The translations under genes and the position numbers were made by a program. Below the pieces are notes generated by a model that did not search any database, was not told the DNA's origin, and was given only the letters and a program-made list of their open reading frames with translations. This document shows positions 7,968-32,753 of a stretch of 32,753 nt of DNA, in pieces (position 1 is the first letter of the stretch; the number at the start of each line of letters is the position of its first letter). This DNA is from Thermoplasmatota archaeon (GTDB lineage: Archaea > Thermoplasmatota > Poseidoniia > Poseidoniales > Poseidoniaceae): assembly GCA_030830875.1 (NCBI GenBank), contig JAURMD010000060.1, forward strand, positions 1-32,753, in the 5' to 3' direction.

Positions 7968-8993
7968 ATGGGCTGCAACCTGAAGGACCTCGCCACCCCG
8001 GAACGCGTCCGGCTTCCTGACCTCGCAGGACAGCGCGTGGGCATCGACGCCTTCCTGACGGCCTTTCAATTCCTCACCACCATGCGAGATCGTTCCCCGG
8101 AGGGGGACGGCATGCCCCTGCGCGCACCCGACGGCCGGTACGTGGCCCACCTGATGGGGTTCCTGCAGCGTACTGTTTCGTTGCTTGAAGCCAGCATCAT
8201 CCCCGTGTTCGTGTTCGACGGGCCCTCCCCCGCACTGAAGGAGGCTGAACTTGCCGCTCGGCGGGCCAGGCGCGTCGAAGCCGAGGAGCAGTACGCCGCG
8301 GCACGCTCAGCAGGTGACCATCGCCTCGCGCAGAAATTGGCAGCGCGCATCATGCACTATTCCCCAGAAATGGTTGAGGAGACGAAGACGATGCTTGACA
8401 TGCTCGGAGTTCCTTGGGTGGCTGCAGCGGCGGAGGGCGAAGGTCAGGCAGCGGTGATGGCCAAACGCGGTCACCTCGACGTGGTGGCCACGCAGGACTG
8501 GGACGCCTTGCTGTACGGGTCTCCAGTGCTCGTACGGCACCTGATGGCGGACGGAAGCAAGGCCTACGGCAAGGTCATCCATGCTGAACGGATCGATTTG
8601 GCCGCCATGCGCGAGGCCATCGGGTTGAGCCAAGACCAATTGGTTGACCTCGGCATCATGATTGGGACCGATTTCCACCCCGGTGTCCGCGGAGTGGGGC
8701 CGAAAACAGGCCTGAACCTCTTGCTCAAGCATGGAACCCTGGAAGGTGTCTGCGCCGCGAAACAGGTCGAAGTTCCTGACAACCTCGACGAGATTCGGGC
8801 CATCTTCAACCATCATCCCGCGTCGGACACCGATCCGGCCTCCCTCTCGCTGGGGCCGGTCGATGCAACGGGGTTGACGCGTTTTCTTCAGGACGAGCGT
8901 GGGTTCAGCCAGCGCCGCATGGACGACGCCTTTGACCGCCTGAAGAACGCAGGGCGCCTTGGCGGCGGCCAGACATCGTTGTTTTCGTTTTGA
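7968..8993 (+). CDS. fen: Flap endonuclease 1
   Basis: MGCNLKDL, GIDAFLTAFQFLTT, VFVFDGPSPALK, AAAEGEGQAAVMAKRG, ATQDWDALLYG, IGTDFHPGVRGVGPKTGLNLL; C-terminal PIP-box-like GQTSLFSF. Confidence 0.95.
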   Translation: MGCNLKDLATPERVRLPDLAGQRVGIDAFLTAFQFLTTMRDRSPEGDGMPLRAPDGRYVAHLMGFLQRTVSLLEASIIPVFVFDGPSPALKEAELAARRARRVEAEEQYAAARSAGDHRLAQKLAARIMHYSPEMVEETKTMLDMLGVPWVAAAAEGEGQAAVMAKRGHLDVVATQDWDALLYGSPVLVRHLMADGSKAYGKVIHAERIDLAAMREAIGLSQDQLVDLGIMIGTDFHPGVRGVGPKTGLNLLLKHGTLEGVCAAKQVEVPDNLDEIRAIFNHHPASDTDPASLSLGPVDATGLTRFLQDERGFSQRRMDDAFDRLKNAGRLGGGQTSLFSF

Positions 8994-9099
8994 GGCGGTC
9001 GCGCAACATTCCTCAGGGCTTTGCTTCCTCAAGGCGTCCGCGGAGTGGACGGGTTGATAAGGGTCCATCGCGTCAAACTACTGAACAACGAGTTCAGGA

Positions 9100-9531
9100 A
9101 TGAGAACGATGAACCGACGAACGACGCGAATGAGCACGCCTTGGGATCTTTTTGGGGACGTGGACCGGCTGATGTCCAACCTCTTCGTGCCGATGGCCCG
9201 GCCCGCCCGTGGTCACGGCCACCCCGCCTGGCGGGTTGAGCAGCGTGAGGAGGGATGGGACCTCGAAGTGGACCTTCCAGGCTATGCTCGCGAGGAGGTG
9301 ACCGTGGACGTGGCCGAAGGGGAACTCACCGTGGAAGCACGTCGCGTGGGTGTGGCACCGGAGGACGGTTCCGATGCCCCCGTCTTGCGAGAACACCGCC
9401 TTCGCCTGACCCTGCCCGACGACGTCGATGTGGCGGCGGTCGAAGGTGGACTTGCTGATGGACAACTTCGTCTCCACCTGCCTCGGGTGCTTCCCGTGCT
9501 GCCAGAGAGCCGACGGATCGAACTCGTCTGA
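9100..9531 (+). CDS. Small heat shock protein, Hsp20/alpha-crystallin family
   Basis: PWDLFGDVDRLMSNLF, WDLEVDLPGYAREEVTVDVAEGELTVEA, REHRLRLTLPDDVDVAAVEGGLADGQLRLHLPR. Confidence 0.92.
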   Translation: MRTMNRRTTRMSTPWDLFGDVDRLMSNLFVPMARPARGHGHPAWRVEQREEGWDLEVDLPGYAREEVTVDVAEGELTVEARRVGVAPEDGSDAPVLREHRLRLTLPDDVDVAAVEGGLADGQLRLHLPRVLPVLPESRRIELV

Positions 9532-9533
9532 GC

Positions 9534-10571
9534 TCAGGCGTGAAAGCGGTGCGGACTCGCCACATGAGGCACCCCTTGCGTTGATGCAACAGCACCGGAT
9601 GCGCTTGATTGTGCATCGGCCAGCGCCTCAAGGATGCTGTTTACAGGGGCGCACGGAACGCCGACCAAGCGCTGTTCGACCTCCACCCTGCTGAGGTTCA
9701 TCACGACCGCCGCCACAGCAGCTTCGACGCGTGCACGGTCCAGCACCCGGCCGGAATTCGTGCTCCAGGCGCCGTCGTCGGGAACGTCCAACGAGAACGC
9801 GTCGACAAGCGTGCTCCATTGTGCGTCTGACCCAACGGCAATCGCCACGTCGCCGTCTGCTGCGGAAAAGACCCGGTAGGGCACGAGGTTCGGATGTGCC
9901 GTACCCATCCGCACGGGCTCCCCGCCCCCGATCAACGCGTTCTGGGCTTGGTTGATGAGCAGGTCCAACGCGCAGTCCCACAGCGACAAGCGAAGCCTCG
10001 CGCCTTGTCCGGTACGCTCCCGACGGTACAGCGCAGCCAGGATTGCAGCGCTGGCATGGAGTCCCGTGGTGACGTCGATCACGGCGACACCAACCTTGGC
10101 CGGCGCTCCCTCGGCATCACCGGTGATGCTCATCAGGCCGCTGCGGGCCTGCATCGCGAGGTCGTATCCCCCCTCGTCCCGGCGTGGTCCGTCGTTGCCG
10201 TAGGCCGTGATGCTGCAGACGATGGCCCGTTCCGGCCATGGTGCGAACCACCTATCGGCCGTTCCCGGGCGGAAGTTCTCGAGGACCACATCGGCGTTCG
10301 CGACCAGTCGGCGCACGTCGTCGACATCCTCCTGCTTGCGGAGGTCCCGTCGGATGATGTGTTTGCCGAGGTTCACCGACGTCCAGTAGGCCGCGACCTC
10401 TTCACCCTCCACGTTCGTGAATGGCGGGCCCCAGCCACGGGTATCGTCGCCCCACGGCGCTTCGATGCGCAGCACGTCGGCGCCAAGGTCCAGCAGCGCC
10501 TTCGCCGCGTAGGGTCCAGCCAGAACCCGGGACAGGTCGAGCACGCGCACGCCCTCCAAGGGTCGGAACAT
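9534..10571 (-). CDS. CaiB/BaiF family CoA-transferase (type III)
   Basis: MFRPLEGVRVLDLSRVLAGPYAAKALLDLGADVLRIEAPWGDDTRGWGPPF, LVANADVVLENFRPGTADRW, GEPVRMGTAHPNLVPYRVF. Start trimmed from the ORF start at 11018 to 10571. Confidence 0.93.
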   Translation of the reverse strand: MFRPLEGVRVLDLSRVLAGPYAAKALLDLGADVLRIEAPWGDDTRGWGPPFTNVEGEEVAAYWTSVNLGKHIIRRDLRKQEDVDDVRRLVANADVVLENFRPGTADRWFAPWPERAIVCSITAYGNDGPRRDEGGYDLAMQARSGLMSITGDAEGAPAKVGVAVIDVTTGLHASAAILAALYRRERTGQGARLRLSLWDCALDLLINQAQNALIGGGEPVRMGTAHPNLVPYRVFSAADGDVAIAVGSDAQWSTLVDAFSLDVPDDGAWSTNSGRVLDRARVEAAVAAVVMNLSRVEVEQRLVGVPCAPVNSILEALADAQSSASGAVASTQGVPHVASPHRFHA

Positions 10572-24439: not shown

Positions 24440-24958
24440 ATGAACAACGAAAACCGAAACGAAGAGGCTGTGAGCCCCGTCATCGCGACCATCCTGATGG
24501 TGGCGATCACGGTGGTGCTGGCCGGTGTGCTGTACGTGTGGGCGAGCTCCCTTGCAGAAGGCAACACCGACGGCGACCTGACGCTGTACGTGTTCACCGC
24601 GGAAGACGCGGGCGGCACGGTCAGCGCCAACACCGACGACGCGCTCGTGCGCGTGGCCATGACCCAGGGCAGCGGCATCAACTGGGCCTCGCTTGACGTG
24701 AAGATCACCGTCGGCGAAGGCACCCCGATGACCTGCGACCGCTCCGAAGCCGGCGACGGCTCGGACGTCGAGACCGACTGCTACATGGTTGAGTACGGCA
24801 CCACCAACGATGCCGAGTGGACCATTGGCGACGGCGTGACCATCTACGAGAACGGTCAGGACCTCTGCTCTGTGAGCGAGACCTGCGCGGTTGAGGTCGT
24901 CATCGTCAACAGCCGCGAGGGCCAGACCCTCGACGAGTCGAACACCGTCGCTGAGTGA
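24440..24958 (+). CDS. Archaeal type IV pilin (class III signal peptide, Pilin_N domain)
   Basis: MNNENRNEEAVSPVIATILMVAITVVLAGVLYVWASSLAEG: conserved archaeal pilin N-terminus; four Cys in the mature domain. Confidence 0.92.
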   Translation: MNNENRNEEAVSPVIATILMVAITVVLAGVLYVWASSLAEGNTDGDLTLYVFTAEDAGGTVSANTDDALVRVAMTQGSGINWASLDVKITVGEGTPMTCDRSEAGDGSDVETDCYMVEYGTTNDAEWTIGDGVTIYENGQDLCSVSETCAVEVVIVNSREGQTLDESNTVAE

Positions 24959-25039: not shown

Positions 25040-26260
25040 TCATTCTTGTCGCGCATCGGCGTTGGGCGTCCACAGATGGGCCGGTCGGCCTGCGAGTTCC
25101 AAGCACCACGCCTTGAGCAGCGGCACCATGCCTGCAAGCACCGTGGACACCCCACCGAGCGGCCCGGGCAACCGCCGCTCAAGCAAGCCCGCCACGAGGC
25201 ACAACAGACCAACGGTTTCAGCAACGAGGAGGCCGACGCCTGCGGGGTCCGACCATGGCGTTTCGCCGTGTTGCAACTGAACCGTCCAACGAAGCACAGC
25301 AGCGACCGCCGCCACCACCGCCAACCATGGAGCACGCAGGTGGGCATGCCGCTGGAACCGTAGCGTCCGTGCGAGGTGGGACGGTGACCGGAGGCGCCTG
25401 TACCGACGCAGGACGCGAAGTAAACCTCGAGCGCGGCGGGTGCGTTGGCGTGCCCTTCCTCGATGCGAGGACGGAGCACGGTCGCTGAAGATGGCCTCAG
25501 GTTGCTGCAGCGTGCGCCAACCGGCCGCTGCGATGGCGAGCGTGATCTGTGCATCGTCGGCGTTTGAGGTCGGGTCCAAGGCTTCGTCCGGAAGCGCACC
25601 AAGGCGGAAGGCGAGGAGGCTGCCTTCGAGGAAGGGCGTGGCCCCCATCGCACCTTCGGCCCGGCGGAGGTTGCTGAAGCGTCGACGGTGCTCAGCCTCG
25701 CGCGCGGTGGCCCCCCTTCGCTGCGGTGTCCCACCAGCTGCGCCAACCTGCTCGTTCGAAAAGCATCCGAGAAGCACGGCGAGGGAACCTTCGGCGCACG
25801 TGGCGTCCGCGTCCACCATGACAACGACGTCGGTGTGTTGCGCTTCGCGAAGATGCGTCAGCGCTGTGGCGACAGCCGCGGTTTTTCCCTTACGCGACCC
25901 CATCAGCAGCACGTCGTGGGACGCGAAGGCCTCGGGGTTGGCATCCAACCATGCAGCAGCGCGTTCCACCGTCGCGTCGTCCGAGGCCGAGTCGATCACC
26001 ACGAGACGAAGCCCGGCTGCCCCAGGCCCGGTTCCGTTGATCCGTTGCGCAGCAAGGTTGTCCAATCGGCGTTCGATGACGGACGCTTCGTTCCACGTCG
26101 GCAGCAGCACCGTTGTTCGTGAGCACACCTGAGGTGGCGCTTCCTGCACGGCGTGGTCCTCCACAGCGGCCAAGGCGCGTCGGCAGCGTGCCTCATGCAG
26201 CAGGAAGGGCACCCCAAACCAGAGCATGGCCACGCCCTCAAGCAGGCCGGTCCACAGCAT
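25040..26260 (-). CDS. Family 2 glycosyltransferase, membrane-associated
   Basis: TTVLLPTWNEASVIERRLDNLAAQ, LRLVVIDSASDDATVERAAAWL, VVVMVDADATCAEGSLAVLLGCF; C-terminal hydrophobic segments. Start MLWTGLLEG at 26260. Confidence 0.9.
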   Translation of the reverse strand: MLWTGLLEGVAMLWFGVPFLLHEARCRRALAAVEDHAVQEAPPQVCSRTTVLLPTWNEASVIERRLDNLAAQRINGTGPGAAGLRLVVIDSASDDATVERAAAWLDANPEAFASHDVLLMGSRKGKTAAVATALTHLREAQHTDVVVMVDADATCAEGSLAVLLGCFSNEQVGAAGGTPQRRGATAREAEHRRRFSNLRRAEGAMGATPFLEGSLLAFRLGALPDEALDPTSNADDAQITLAIAAAGWRTLQQPEAIFSDRAPSSHRGRARQRTRRARGLLRVLRRYRRLRSPSHLARTLRFQRHAHLRAPWLAVVAAVAAVLRWTVQLQHGETPWSDPAGVGLLVAETVGLLCLVAGLLERRLPGPLGGVSTVLAGMVPLLKAWCLELAGRPAHLWTPNADARQE

Positions 26261-26339
26261 GCGACGACCTTCCTCCTCTCGACCTTGAGGCCTTCCTCGG
26301 CGCCGGTGTGCTGATGGGGCATTCCTGCTTCGTCCTCGT

Positions 26340-27329
26340 GTGACCGACCTCCTGCACGTCGGACCTTCGGATTCGCCGGGAGGGATGGCGAAGGTCATGC
26401 GAACCCTGGCCACCGCGCCACCGCCGGGTTGGGCCCCGGTGCTGCAGGCTTCCCACGGGCCGAACCATGCAACGACGCTCCTTCGCGCACGCCGTGCTCG
26501 TGCAGCCCTGCGAGGCAGCCCACCAACGACACTGATCCACCTTCACGCAGCGAGCGACTGGTCCCTCCGGCGCAAACTCAGCATCGCGCGAATGGCAGGC
26601 CCCCGCCCTGTGGTGCTTCACCTGCACAGCGGCAACACGGCCTCGTGGCTGGCGGCCTCAACCGCTCGTGCCGCGCGCATCCGTTCGGCCATCGATGCCC
26701 ACGTCGATGTGGTGGTGGTCCTTGATGACGCGTGGAAAGCACGGCTGGAACCGTGGCTCGGCGAGGTGGAGGTCGTCCCGAATCCCGTGGATCAGATCCA
26801 CGTCCCCCCCACCGCTCCTTCGAGCGGCACCAACCTGCTCGTGATGGGACGCGATGCGCCCGTCAAGCGCCGTGGCTTTGCCCTCGACGTGCTCCACCAC
26901 GTCCGACGCGAACGTCCGGAGGTGCACCTTCACCTCACGGGAGGAAAGCGCTCGACCGGCGCAGGGTGGACCCGGCACGGTTGGCTTGAGGACGCTGATC
27001 GGCTACGCCTGCTGCAGTCCACCGACGTGCTGTTGCTTCCTTCCCGGTTTGAAGGGCAACCGCTGGCGGCCCTCGAAGCCCTTGCCTGTGGCGTGCCCGT
27101 CCTGGCTTCGCACGCCTTGGTCGGCCTGCCCCCCACCGTGGCTCGTCCCGACAACGACACCCTCGAGGCTTGGAGCGTCGCCGTATGTCGCCTGCTTGAC
27201 GACCGACCGTCGCAGGAAACCCTCGTGGCCTCGGTGGCCCCGCATGCGGTCGAGGCGATCACCGCACGCTGGGCCGAGGTCTACGCGCTGGCCGTGGAGC
27301 GAGCCGCCCGCCGCGGCGTGTCACCTTGA
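26340..27329 (+). CDS. GT4-like (GT-B) glycosyltransferase
   Basis: MTDLLHVGPSDSPGGMAKVMRTLA, VVPNPVDQIH, LLVMGRDAPVKRRGFALDVLHHVRRERPEVHLHLTGG, LLQSTDVLLLPSRFEGQPLAALEALACGVPVLAS. Confidence 0.9.
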   Translation: MTDLLHVGPSDSPGGMAKVMRTLATAPPPGWAPVLQASHGPNHATTLLRARRARAALRGSPPTTLIHLHAASDWSLRRKLSIARMAGPRPVVLHLHSGNTASWLAASTARAARIRSAIDAHVDVVVVLDDAWKARLEPWLGEVEVVPNPVDQIHVPPTAPSSGTNLLVMGRDAPVKRRGFALDVLHHVRRERPEVHLHLTGGKRSTGAGWTRHGWLEDADRLRLLQSTDVLLLPSRFEGQPLAALEALACGVPVLASHALVGLPPTVARPDNDTLEAWSVAVCRLLDDRPSQETLVASVAPHAVEAITARWAEVYALAVERAARRGVSP

Positions 27330-28286
27330 GGCGTTGGTGAGCCGTTCGTCCACCATCCGTGCAAGCCCGTCTTCGAGCGACACGGTGGCTTGCCATCCGA
27401 GTTCTTCGCGAATGGCGTCCACACAGGCGAGCGAATCGGTGATGTCGCCGGGTCGAGGAGGTCCAAACTCTGGGTTGAGGTGTGCACCGTCCACGCCGCG
27501 TGCGCGCAAGGCACCGGCCAACGTGTGCACGAGGTCCAGTAAGGACACGCGACGACCCGTCGCCACGTTGTACGCGTGCCGTGGCGTCGGACGCCACGGC
27601 GCCGTCGTAAGGTGGAGCAACAGGCCAGCCACGTCGTCCACGTGCACGAAATCCCGGGTTTGCTTACCCGTTCCAAGGATGCGGGGTGACGTTCCACCGC
27701 ACATGCGGTCCACGAAAGCGGGGATCACCGCTGCGTAGGCTCCATCAGCCCGCTGACCGGTTCCGTAGACGTTGAAGAAACGAAGGGCAAGCGCTTCCCA
27801 ACCCGCTGCACGCCGTCGGAGGACCTCTGCTTCGTTGGCCCATTTGCTGTCGGCATAGGGCGAAAGGCGCTTTCCTGCCGCGTCTTCACCCAGGGGCAGG
27901 TCGGCTGCGTCGCCGTACACGGCGGCGGACGAAGCGAGCACCAAGCGCCGAATGCCGCGGGCCTCCATGTCGTTGGCCAAGCCTTCCGTGGCGTGGATGT
28001 TGATCGACGCCGTCTCCTGTGGGTCCTCGACCGAGCGGGCCACCGAAACCTGCGCAGCGAGGTGAACAACGGCCTCGACCCCTTCCAAGGCCTGAGCCCG
28101 GGCCTCGGGGTCACGCAGGTCGCCCCGTACGGCGTGTCCTCCCTTGGCTTCGAGCGCTTCCAAGCGTTCCACGCGCCCTGTGCTGAGGTCGTCGAGCACG
28201 GTCACCGCGTGCCCTGCCTCAAGGGCGAGGGCGGCGACGCGACCGCCGATGAAACCGGCGCCGCCGGTGATGAGCAACCTCGTCAT
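27321..28286 (-). CDS. NAD-dependent epimerase/dehydratase (UDP-glucose 4-epimerase-like, extended SDR)
   Basis: MTRLLITGGAGFIGGRVAALALEAGHAVTVLDDLSTGR, LVLASSAAVYGDAADLPLGEDAAGKRLSPYADSKWANE, LALRFFNVYGTGQRADGAYAAVIPAFVDRM. Confidence 0.94.
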   Translation of the reverse strand: MTRLLITGGAGFIGGRVAALALEAGHAVTVLDDLSTGRVERLEALEAKGGHAVRGDLRDPEARAQALEGVEAVVHLAAQVSVARSVEDPQETASINIHATEGLANDMEARGIRRLVLASSAAVYGDAADLPLGEDAAGKRLSPYADSKWANEAEVLRRRAAGWEALALRFFNVYGTGQRADGAYAAVIPAFVDRMCGGTSPRILGTGKQTRDFVHVDDVAGLLLHLTTAPWRPTPRHAYNVATGRRVSLLDLVHTLAGALRARGVDGAHLNPEFGPPRPGDITDSLACVDAIREELGWQATVSLEDGLARMVDERLTNASR

Positions 28287-28356: not shown

Positions 28357-29739
28357 GTGAATCCGTTCATGGGGCTGTGGCGAAAAGAGCTCTTGCGTCG
28401 TGCCTACAACAACGGAGACGATTCCCGTGTCGACCGTTTGTCGCGCACCTTGCTCAACCACCCCAAGCATGCGCCATTCGCGCGAGATGTGCTCATTCGA
28501 AGCATGTGGAGGAGACGACGTTGGGAGGATGTTGTGGATTTGTGTCGCCGATGGCCTGAATCGGATGTGCACGCCCTCGCGGGGCGTGCCGGCCAACACC
28601 TTGAGCGAAGGCATCCTCCGAAGAAGACTTACCCTTCTGAACGGCCGCCGGAGGGACTTGGGCATGTAGACTGGAATGCTACCGATCTTCACCGCATGTG
28701 GCATCAGGTCGAGCAGAAGCTGTGGTTTCGACACCCATGGGGTTGGTGCCATTGGGACATGCCTGCAGGGTGGTCGTTGGACTCCACCCATCCTGCATTG
28801 ATTGAACTCGCTGCTGACGTGCTGTTGCGACCTTGGGTGAAGGAGGTCATGGCCCCCTTGACCACAGGGAGGGAGAAAGGGTCTCGACTTGGGCTTGCTT
28901 GGTCCTGTGGTGTCGATTCAACTGCGGCCATGTTGTTGCTTAACGACGAAACGGTTCTCGCGTATCACGAGCGGGATGTCCAGTCGATGTTGGACCACCG
29001 AAATGCGAAGCACCTGATCAAGAAGGTCCAATCGCTTGGCCGTGATGTCCTTGTGGTTCGATCAGACCACGAATTGATTCGTACGAACCATGGCAAGATG
29101 ATAGGTTTTTCAACGGATTATGCGAGTGGAGTTCACCTCATCCTGCTGGCGGATTGGCTCGATTTGGCTGGTATTGCGTTCGGTGTCCCCATCGACAACA
29201 CCTGGCTGCACAAAGGACGGACCTTCCGGGATTTTTCTCAATCCGCCCACTGGATTGCATGGCAAGCTCGCTTCCATGAAGCAGGATTGGACCTCGTTCT
29301 GCCAATCAACCATATCTCGGAAGCAGGAGCACTCCGAATTGTCCAAGCCAGTGCGTTAGCGTCGGACGTCAACTCCTGCATGAGGGGGGACGGCCTTGGT
29401 GGGTGCGGTCGATGTTGGAAGTGCTTCCATAAGAACGGGCCAATGGGCCGTCCGTACGATGTTTCAAGCCACGAGATCTCCACGTTTCTCTCTCAGCGAC
29501 CGTTGCGAACGGCGCAGCACGCGCTCTGGGCGCTCAAACATCTTGGTCTCGAGGATTTGGTCCCTGACCTTCAGCCTCTCTTGAAGGAAGATCTTGGTTG
29601 GTGGGAATCGGCGTTCGAACCAGGTCTCGAACTGATTCCAAACCCGTGGAGGGCTGAGGTGGAATCCCGAACGCGTGAACTTCTCGAAGTGAAGGGTGTT
29701 GAGTCCCCCTTGGTGAAGGTCAACCTCTTCGCAGATTGA
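28357..29739 (+). CDS. PP-loop (N-type ATP pyrophosphatase) protein with QueC-like C-terminal Zn motif and helical N-terminal domain; possibly DUF6395-like
   Basis: GLAWSCGVDSTAAMLLL (PP-loop SxGxDS), and CMRGDGLGGCGRCWKC matching the QueC C-x8-CGxC-x2-C arrangement. Start GTG 28357 or ATG 28369. Confidence 0.75.
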   Translation: MNPFMGLWRKELLRRAYNNGDDSRVDRLSRTLLNHPKHAPFARDVLIRSMWRRRRWEDVVDLCRRWPESDVHALAGRAGQHLERRHPPKKTYPSERPPEGLGHVDWNATDLHRMWHQVEQKLWFRHPWGWCHWDMPAGWSLDSTHPALIELAADVLLRPWVKEVMAPLTTGREKGSRLGLAWSCGVDSTAAMLLLNDETVLAYHERDVQSMLDHRNAKHLIKKVQSLGRDVLVVRSDHELIRTNHGKMIGFSTDYASGVHLILLADWLDLAGIAFGVPIDNTWLHKGRTFRDFSQSAHWIAWQARFHEAGLDLVLPINHISEAGALRIVQASALASDVNSCMRGDGLGGCGRCWKCFHKNGPMGRPYDVSSHEISTFLSQRPLRTAQHALWALKHLGLEDLVPDLQPLLKEDLGWWESAFEPGLELIPNPWRAEVESRTRELLEVKGVESPLVKVNLFAD

Positions 29740-29798
29740 GCATGCATCAAGCCCTCATCCCCCAACGGTGAAGAAGGATTCCGCAAAGCGAAGACGTG

Positions 29799-31124
29799 AT
29801 GGAAGTGTCTGGGCCATCGGCCGAGGAGCAGACTCGCTCCCTTCAGGCTGAAATCCAAAGGCTTCGACGTGACCGTCAGCGGCTTCGCCAGACCGTATCG
29901 TTCCGTCTGGGTCTTCATCTCACGACCGCTGTTCGTCGTCCATGGCGGTTGCTTGCGCTTCCAATCAGTTTCCCGTGGCTGGCCGTTCGGCTTGGCCTCG
30001 AACGGCTCGGGCGCACACCTGCTCTGCTTCCCGATCTTGATGTCATGGAGAAAAAGCGTTCGAAGTCGGTCGTTCTCTTCCCAACAAACGGGGTTGGATT
30101 TGGGCATTTTACACGGATGTATGCCTTAGCAAAGCGATTGAGAGAGGCGGATTCAGAACTTGAAATCGTGTTCTTCACGACCATGCCAACGTTGCACATT
30201 CCATATGCGGACAATTTTCCAACCTACCATCTTGCAGGTCGAGGAAAACACAAATCATTGGAACCATCAACGTGGAACGGACTTGTCGAAGATATGCTTC
30301 ATATGGTGCTCGACGTTCATCGACCTGCAGTCTTCGTGTTTGATGGGGCCTTTCCATACCGAGGCATGCTCAACGCCATCGTGCAAGAATCGAACATGCA
30401 CCGAATTTGGGTTCGCCGTGGCATGTTTCGCGAAGGCTCCAGCATACCTGTTGACAGCATTTCGTGCTTCGATCTGCTTGTTCGACCTGGTGATGCGCTG
30501 CCCCCCGCTCTCGACGGCATTGAGGTTGGCACAAACGAATTGGAAGTTGAGACCATGCTGGTGGTCGAGCCGAACGATATGCTTGACCGCGCAGCAGCTC
30601 GGCGGCGCCTCGGTCTGCCAATGGATGCTCGTGCCGTCTACGTTCAACTCGGTGCAGGGCGCATCAACGACATCGAATCCGAAGTCCGACGCGTGGTCGA
30701 TGCCCTTCACAAGGAGCCTGACGTCCACGTGGTGCTTGGTGAATCCATGCTGGGCGAACGCCTGGATGTTGACCTTGATCGGATTCACCTGTTGCGTGAT
30801 TACCCGAATGCCCTGTACCTCAAAGCCTTCGATGCGAGCGTTCAAGCGGGTGGCTACAACTCCTTCCATGAGATGCGGTCCCTCCGGATTCCAACGTTGT
30901 TCCTCCCCAACCTTTCCACAGGCATGGATGATCAGGTTGCACGGTGCAACGTCGCGGTGGATGAAGGCTGGGGGTGCGTCAACCTCGACCGTTCCTCTGA
31001 CTCCATCGCGCACGATGTTGACGCGTTGTTGTCTCTGAAACCTCAACCCCTCCCTGCCGCAGAAGCGAACGGGGCCAGAACCCTTTCCTCGCACATTTTG
31101 TCGTTGTTCGGAGAGGATGCATGA
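29799..31124 (+). CDS. GT-B (GT28/MurG-like) glycosyltransferase with N-terminal coiled-coil/basic region
   Basis: EEQTRSLQAEIQRLRRDRQRLRQTVSF coiled coil; SVVLFPTNGVGFGHFTRMYALAKRLREAD; YLKAFDASVQAGGYNSFHEMRSLRIPTLFLPNLSTGMDDQVARCNVAVDEGWG. Confidence 0.8.
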   Translation: MEVSGPSAEEQTRSLQAEIQRLRRDRQRLRQTVSFRLGLHLTTAVRRPWRLLALPISFPWLAVRLGLERLGRTPALLPDLDVMEKKRSKSVVLFPTNGVGFGHFTRMYALAKRLREADSELEIVFFTTMPTLHIPYADNFPTYHLAGRGKHKSLEPSTWNGLVEDMLHMVLDVHRPAVFVFDGAFPYRGMLNAIVQESNMHRIWVRRGMFREGSSIPVDSISCFDLLVRPGDALPPALDGIEVGTNELEVETMLVVEPNDMLDRAAARRRLGLPMDARAVYVQLGAGRINDIESEVRRVVDALHKEPDVHVVLGESMLGERLDVDLDRIHLLRDYPNALYLKAFDASVQAGGYNSFHEMRSLRIPTLFLPNLSTGMDDQVARCNVAVDEGWGCVNLDRSSDSIAHDVDALLSLKPQPLPAAEANGARTLSSHILSLFGEDA

Positions 31125-31651
31125 TGGATCCGGACCCGGTCTGGATGCTCCCAGAATCGGCCATGTCGTGGATTGAGTCAACGTTGCCAAACGGAGCGCA
31201 CATCCTTGAATTCGGAAGCGGCCATGGGACGGACCGGCTCGCACGCAGGTTTGAGATGCTCAGCGTTGAGCACGATGCCGAATGGGTGGAACGGTGTCCA
31301 ACACCATGCATCCACGCGCCAATTGAGGAGAACGCGACGTCTTTTTCTGCCGGTGAGCAGGGGTGGTATCGGCTTTCGGTGGTGCTCGAATCGATTCCAA
31401 CTGACCTTGATTTGGTCATTGTCGATGGACCTCCAGGATCCATCGGGCGTACCGGTCTCTTGCAAAGCCTACATGCACTCCCTAGTGACGTTCCTTTTAT
31501 CGTGGACGATGTCCATCGACAAGCGGAGTCGGCATTGTTCATGAAGCTTGAAGCATGGCACTCGGGGTCAGCCACGTGGCATTGGATGGAGCATGACGGA
31601 ATTGCCAAAGGGCGTGCTTGGGGGATTTTGATGGTGGAGGGTGGCCAATGA
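31124..31651 (+). CDS. Class I SAM-dependent methyltransferase-like protein
   Basis: [37 protein letters not shown] (motif I) and [20 protein letters not shown] (motif IV-like). In-frame ATG also at 31121. Confidence 0.7.
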
Positions 31652-32753
31652 CCGAGTACGGGACCACCCTCCCCGACGGCATGGTGTTGCCTCCTTTGCG
31701 CGGTCCTGGTAACAATTACACGTTCATCGAGGCGAGGGTGGGGAGCGTTGAACCGAATTTCCCAATCAGCATTGTGATTCCCGTCTACAATCGGATCGAG
31801 ATGTTGCGGCGGACGATGGGGATGCTCACGCATCAGACCTACCCCCTAGACCTGATCGAGGTTGTCATTGCCGATGACGGCTCTTCTGACCACCCGGAAC
31901 AGTTGATCGATGAATTCTCTCCCTTCTTCGAAGTCAATTACGTTCGCCAGCAAGACCTTGGGTATCGGCTTTCTCACGCACGTAACCTCGGGGTTCGGGC
32001 TGCAAGGCACGACCATGTCATCATCCTGGACTGCGACATGGCGCCGGTTCCTGGGCTTGTGAAAACTTACGCTGAATGGCTTGCTGTTGGGGAGAAGGTC
32101 ATCCTGATTGGGCATCGACGCTACGTTGATGCCAACAACGTGGACCCAAGCGCCGTCCTAGAGGATCCAACGGTGATGATGGAACTCCCAAACGTGCAAA
32201 CAAAAAACGCCGTCATGAAAAACAGCCCTTCGAGTGATTGGCGCGAACCGATTTACGAAGCAACAGATTACCTGAAGCAATCCCCGTATCCATTTCGATG
32301 CTGCTCCTGCGGCAACGTGGCCTTCCACCGCCGTCTTTTCCAAGAGGCGGGTTCCTTTGATGAGGCGTTTACGGCATGGGGGGCCGAAGACAACGAATTC
32401 GGCTATCGAGTCTGGAATGCAGGGTACTACTTCATCCCGATGCTCGATGCGCTTGGTATGCATCAGGAGCCTCCCGGTGGCAGGGAGTTTGTCGACCGGG
32501 AGGCCGGACGGGCCATCACCAAGCCCATGCTTCTCGACAAGGTTCCAGCGTTCTATCGAACATACGACCCCGAGGTGGAGACCTCCGTGCCCGCCGTTTC
32601 CATCTACATACCAGCCTACAACGCTGCGAATACCATTGAACAAGCCATCGATTCAGCTCTTGCTCAAACCTATCGTGACTTCGAAATCGTAGTCTGCAAC
32701 GACGGATCAACCGACCGGACAAGGGCCATCTTGAATCAGCGGTATGGCCAACA
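31648..32753 (+). CDS. Dual-domain (tandem GT2) glycosyltransferase, C-terminus beyond window edge
   Basis: Hand translation from ATG 31648: [29 protein letters not shown]...[29 protein letters not shown]...[15 protein letters not shown]...[26 protein letters not shown]...[48 protein letters not shown]. Open at right edge; ATGA overlap with previous gene. Confidence 0.88.

Follow-up and report, generated by a model that had tools for sequence, protein, structure and literature searches.

A QueC-like PP-loop protein of the DUF6395 family encoded among glycosyltransferase genes in a Marine Group II archaeon

PP-loop enzymes of the QueC-like kind adenylate an oxygen of their substrate, which is then attacked by a nucleophile. 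The fold has been put to several uses, QatC and Cap9 being repurposed QueC-like enzymes and the N-sugar amidotransferase WbpG/WbuX (TIGR03573) being a PP-loop enzyme that amidates a surface sugar. The conversion of uronic acid to uronamide on sugars requires WbpS, a member of the AsnB family (PMC7468200). A further QueC-like protein, encoded by a Poseidoniales (Marine Group II) archaeon, was compared with these systems in this work. The window, i.e. the whole stretch of DNA analysed (32,753 nt), is contig C29, from its first base, of a 1.8 Mb genome in 176 contigs. Its closest relatives were found in Poseidoniales (Marine Group II) genomes, at up to 53 % identity.

The QueC-like gene occupies positions 28357..29739 (+), in a frame that runs uninterrupted from a GTG codon at 28357 to the stop at 29739, with an in-frame ATG at 28369 as an alternative start. 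As had been guessed in the original prediction, its 460 aa product belongs to DUF6395 (PF19932; E=2.4e-20), scoring 73.7 bits against a Pfam gathering cut-off of 25. It is an architectural variant of this named but uncharacterized family, for which literature text searches with DUF6395 and PF19932 found no paper; the group of the window protein adds a TPR-like N-terminal domain and an SCG or SAG PP-loop, and paralogues are fused to GT2 domains. Searches of NCBIfam and PADLOC with the window protein gave nothing meaningful, and a search of the PDB with the single sequence gave chance matches to UvrA only.

Both motifs on which the original prediction was based were found in the translation. The PP-loop SCGVDS (residues 183–188, S183-C-G-V-D-S188; 28903..28920, +), predicted to function in ATP pyrophosphate binding, is followed by a predicted zinc site of four cysteines (Cys4), C341-x8-C350-G-x-C353-W-K-C356 (29377..29424, +), which was invariant in the family alignments; the stretch CMRGDGLGGCGRCWKC has the zinc spacing of QueC. 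The two motifs in that order occurred once in the window and in none of 300 codon shuffles. Motif counts were made on 66 distinct DUF6395 members, with Escherichia coli QueC as the control. All 66 possessed the four cysteines, with a first spacing of 7–10 residues, and 63 possessed S-x-G-x-D-S, indicating that the motif pair is not due to chance. The PP-loop read SGG in 45 of the 66, SAG in 15 and SCG in three, the window protein having SCGVDS and QueC SGGxDS. Residues R206, E239, R242, G250-F251, S321-E322, R343, K355 and K359 were invariant or nearly so in the DUF6395 alignments, as was R291 in one of the two alignments; the conserved basic residues would fit an acidic or phosphate-bearing substrate. 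No invariant cysteine was present in these alignments beyond the Cys4 site, leaving no evident candidate for a cysteine that would catalyse sulfur transfer.

The AlphaFold2 model of the window protein (mean pLDDT 93.9) starts with an N-terminal helical repeat, continues through a small region of strands into the PP-loop core and finishes with helices at the C terminus. The helical N-terminal region that had been predicted consists of five helices in residues ~3–85 (28363..28611, +) and is TPR-like by Foldseek. This domain is missing in the Thalassarchaeaceae members, the matches of three of these (L029–L031) beginning at residue ~115. The catalytic core (residues 168–384; 28858..29508, +; core model pLDDT 88) is a PP-loop (HUP) domain, and the fold class can be regarded as settled. 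Foldseek comparison of the core alone with the PDB gave six matches with E<0.001 (best E 1.5e-4), among them TilS, GMP synthase (GMPS), NcsA and LarE; the full-length model gave no PDB match with E below 0.001. Named top matches among viral models were mostly QueC proteins, but no match reached E<0.001. Since TilS, GMP synthase, NcsA and LarE rank above QueC, the fold is no specific pointer to QueC chemistry. In a profile comparison with QueC only the stretch from the proline to the Cys4 site aligned (pairwise E=1e-4), and the cysteine site makes a specific QueC ancestry likely.

The window protein resembles QueC in its PP-loop ATPase core, in C-x8-C-G-x-C-x2-C and in the profile match over that stretch, but differs in lacking all three QueC substrate motifs, in possessing extra N- and C-terminal parts, in its glycan gene neighbours and in the presence of a separate QueC in the same genome. 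It matched neither the Pfam (PF06508) nor the NCBIfam (TIGR00364) model of QueC. YxQxHxxE, VPxRN and YPDC were each found in 0 of the 66 DUF6395 members, whereas the E. coli control has all three. The lost motifs include ones assigned to substrate recognition in papers on the QueC family (PMC13329287; PMC13279940), and their loss makes a deazaguanine substrate unlikely for DUF6395.

The host genome contains one DUF6395 gene and one canonical queC, on different contigs, and translations of the latter contig revealed folE, queE, queC and queD side by side. The window protein is therefore not the tRNA enzyme and was rejected as the QueC of the host; the concern that it might be the only QueC of the genome, with queD and queE elsewhere, proved unfounded. 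Neither queD nor queE was present in the window among the genes scanned (the Pfam scan covered positions from 12 kb onwards), in agreement with the original prediction. Among canonical QueC proteins from Marine Group II, 31 of 31 have themselves lost the four-cysteine zinc motif and kept SGG-x-DS and YPDC; the copy in the host (L002:1486-2271) also keeps YGQRH and VPNRN. The zinc motif has likewise been lost from a Flavobacterium phage QueC (L098).

Comparison with QatC and Cap9, which had been suggested at the outset, showed the window protein to be neither, since their motifs and partner genes were absent. QatC too has N- and C-terminal extensions, but its motifs C(x)19CGxCxxRR and D(x)4R(x)7WxR were each found in 0 of the 66 DUF6395 members, as was YxDC of Cap9; PADLOC gave no match, no qatABD genes were seen, no CD-NTase was present among the scanned neighbours and the gene context differs. 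Identity with WbpG was rejected, as TIGR03573 matched neither the window protein nor any protein of the host genome and CxxC(x)6CxC was found in 0 of the 66 members; this known sugar-amidation family does not, therefore, account for the window protein. The uronamide synthases WbpS/WbqG share with it the reaction proposed below, uronic acid to uronamide. WbpS is AsnB-like, with glutaminase and Asn_synthase domains, whereas Pfam found DUF6395 alone in the window protein, and no glutamine amidotransferase was present among the scanned neighbours.

To the left of the QueC-like gene lie a PgaC/NodC-like GT2 glycosyltransferase (25040..26413, −; Pfam, NCBIfam), conserved as a neighbour in 13 loci, a GT4 glycosyltransferase (26340..27329, +; Pfam), conserved in 18, and an SDR nucleotide-sugar epimerase (GalE/TviC-like; 27321..28286, −), which is divergent from the QueC-like gene and directly upstream in 20 instances. 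To the right are a 442 aa GT-B-like protein (29796..31124, +; weak GT28_C match, E=0.23), directly downstream in 20 instances, on the same strand in 15 of them, for which a profile search of the PDB found nothing, a putative SAM methyltransferase (EFGSGHG; 31121..31651, +) and a protein with two GT2 domains (31597..32751, +; Pfam), open at the contig end. The glycosyltransferases and epimerase described in the original prediction were thus confirmed by Pfam for the GT2, the GT4, the SDR and the terminal GT2; the methyltransferase gave only weak matches (Pfam E=0.21, PDB profile E=0.02). No nucleotide-sugar 6-dehydrogenase was seen in the window, whose contig ends inside the cluster, and the strong 6-dehydrogenase match of the host is on contig C24, with no recognized cassette gene beside it. 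An archaeal type IV pilin N-terminal domain is encoded directly left of the glycan cluster (24440-24958). The G+C content is ~0.67–0.69 in the three glycan genes on the left side but only ~0.56 in the stretch that begins with the QueC-like gene and reaches the contig end (28357-32753), as would be seen had this stretch been exchanged separately.

The cassette is conserved in Marine Group II in the order GT2–GT4–[GT4]–SDR–DUF6395–GT-B, the second GT4 being frequent and the SDR divergent from DUF6395. In addition, in DUF6395 paralogues of 920–1226 aa from three independent genomes the PP-loop domain was fused to GT2 domains, which gave between one and three matched stretches. The DUF6395 domain was found in 44 of the 146 sampled genomes of the host's family, with up to five matches each, and was nearly absent elsewhere in the phylum. 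In a complete Marine Group II genome, a single 16 kb stretch comprised a 6-dehydrogenase, an ABC permease and ATPase, a GT-B, two DUF6395, a GT2x2, a 217 aa protein that aligns with the putative methyltransferase of the window, a GT-B, a third DUF6395, an SDR, two GT4 and a GT2. A genome of the same genus as the host encodes a 1559 aa protein (L107:3652-8328, −) related to the multi-GT2 proteins, adjoining a DUF6395 gene without the TPR domain, an ABC exporter permease and a 6-dehydrogenase.

A strong match to PF03721, the nucleotide-sugar 6-dehydrogenase that makes uronic acids, lay within 12 kb of 28 of 70 DUF6395 copies, with 0.8 expected by random placement, a weak null given that glycan genes cluster. 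Glycan loci commonly contain 6-dehydrogenases, and the excess may be a property of such loci at large. At the level of whole genomes, a 6-dehydrogenase was present in 29 of the 44 with DUF6395 and in 31 of the 102 without it (Fisher p=1e-4). Behind the generic subfamily model, UDP-HexNAc dehydrogenases (TviB/WecC) gave the best scores for the archaeal dehydrogenases of these loci; the SDR matches included TviC, the exporter ATPase in relatives was Wzt/TagH-like and WecB-type epimerases adjoined nine copies of a second DUF6395 subgroup. Given the conserved glycan gene order, the GT2 fusions and the nearby 6-dehydrogenase, DUF6395 of Marine Group II very probably serves in surface-glycan synthesis. 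The motifs, the separate QueC and the gene company all support the original view of a QueC-like PP-loop enzyme repurposed in glycan biosynthesis; of the sugar, lipid or protein acceptors envisaged there, the gene neighbourhood favours a sugar, namely a uronic acid.

Bacterial members were drawn from plasmid records. On a Priestia megaterium plasmid, a gene annotated as DUF6395 was accompanied by GalU, UDP-glucose dehydrogenase, glycosyltransferases and a pyruvyl transferase. The Priestia polysaccharide locus also encodes two further QueC-like proteins of 400 aa (L066:7485-8687 and 8890-10095, −) with SGGVDS and Cys4, which have relatives on haloarchaeal plasmids; the two haloarchaeal regions that were read had glycosyltransferase, epimerase or polysaccharide deacetylase genes nearby. 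A distant relative in Nonomuraea (L067:19713-21077) has a flavin amine oxidase and three Ser/Thr kinases as its neighbours, with no recognized glycan genes, indicating that DUF6395 members need not all be glycan enzymes.

With a uronic-acid maker in many DUF6395 loci, conversion of a carboxylate to an amide is the most economical reaction. It is quite possible, and is tentatively favoured here, that DUF6395 is a PP-loop ATP pyrophosphatase of a surface-polysaccharide locus which activates a uronic-acid carboxylate so that ammonia or another amine can form an amide with it. The PP-loop would bind ATP and adenylate a hexuronic acid at its C6 carboxylate; this acid would probably be a HexNAc uronic acid of the type produced by the nucleotide-sugar 6-dehydrogenase and TviC-like epimerase of such loci. 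Ammonia or a small amine would then attack to give the amide, by analogy with QueC acting on 7-carboxy-7-deazaguanine, and the Cys4 site would hold a structural zinc. The TPR-like domain may serve for docking on a partner, for example a glycosyltransferase, as paralogues achieve by fusion, and the reaction could take place at either the sugar nucleotide or the glycan stage.

Other acyl transfers in the same glycan locus, joining the carboxylate of an amino acid or other acid to the amine of an amino sugar or forming amide bonds between uronates and amino sugars, appear rather unlikely by comparison. Cap9 is a QueC-like enzyme that uses an amine other than ammonia, as QatC is thought to do (PMC13279940), surface glycans with amino-acyl sugars are known (PMC7468200), and the several DUF6395 paralogues per locus suggest several different couplings; however, no amino-acid-specific partner gene was recognized and the 6-dehydrogenase association suggests that the sugar supplies the acid. 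Sulfur or other non-amide chemistry of the LarE, NcsA or TilS type, with a catalytic or iron–sulfur Cys4 site, is improbable: these three enzymes precede QueC among the Foldseek matches of the core, but the four invariant cysteines are in the exact zinc spacing of QueC with no other conserved cysteine, and no sulfur-carrier gene was recognized in the cassette. Less probable again is deazaguanine chemistry, in which a glycan or protein would receive 7-carboxy-7-deazaguanine, much as Cap9 attaches it to a protein N terminus; the host should be able to make the precursor, having folE, queE, queC and queD together, and the zinc spacing is identical, but loss of the three substrate motifs from all 66 members leaves no Y/D base-recognition pair and neither CD-NTase nor QatABD genes, nor a PADLOC match, were seen. 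A defence protein located in a glycan cluster by chance was rejected as scarcely credible: QatC and Cap9, which belong to the same superfamily, do act in defence (PMC13329287), but the window protein had no defence partners or PADLOC match, viral-contig scans with the DUF6395 family alignment and with QueC found no relatives in phages or viral contigs, and synteny with glycan genes is retained alongside the glycosyltransferase fusions.

Surface oceans harbour abundant Marine Group II archaea, and no description of their surface-glycan chemistry was found in the literature searched. A broader idea, which is speculative and for now doubtful, is that DUF6395 might be a class of enzymes, not described before, that form amide bonds in concert with glycosyltransferases. 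With several such enzymes per locus, Marine Group II and some bacteria would make surface polysaccharides that are amide-linked or amidated, the fused GT2–PP-loop proteins being glycosylate-and-amidate modules. A QueC-like enzyme fused to glycosyltransferases would extend the chemistry of the fold past base synthesis, protein tagging and WbpG-type amidation. For DUF6395, a Pfam family without an assigned function, this provides a concrete hypothesis that is testable in the cultivable bacterium Priestia.
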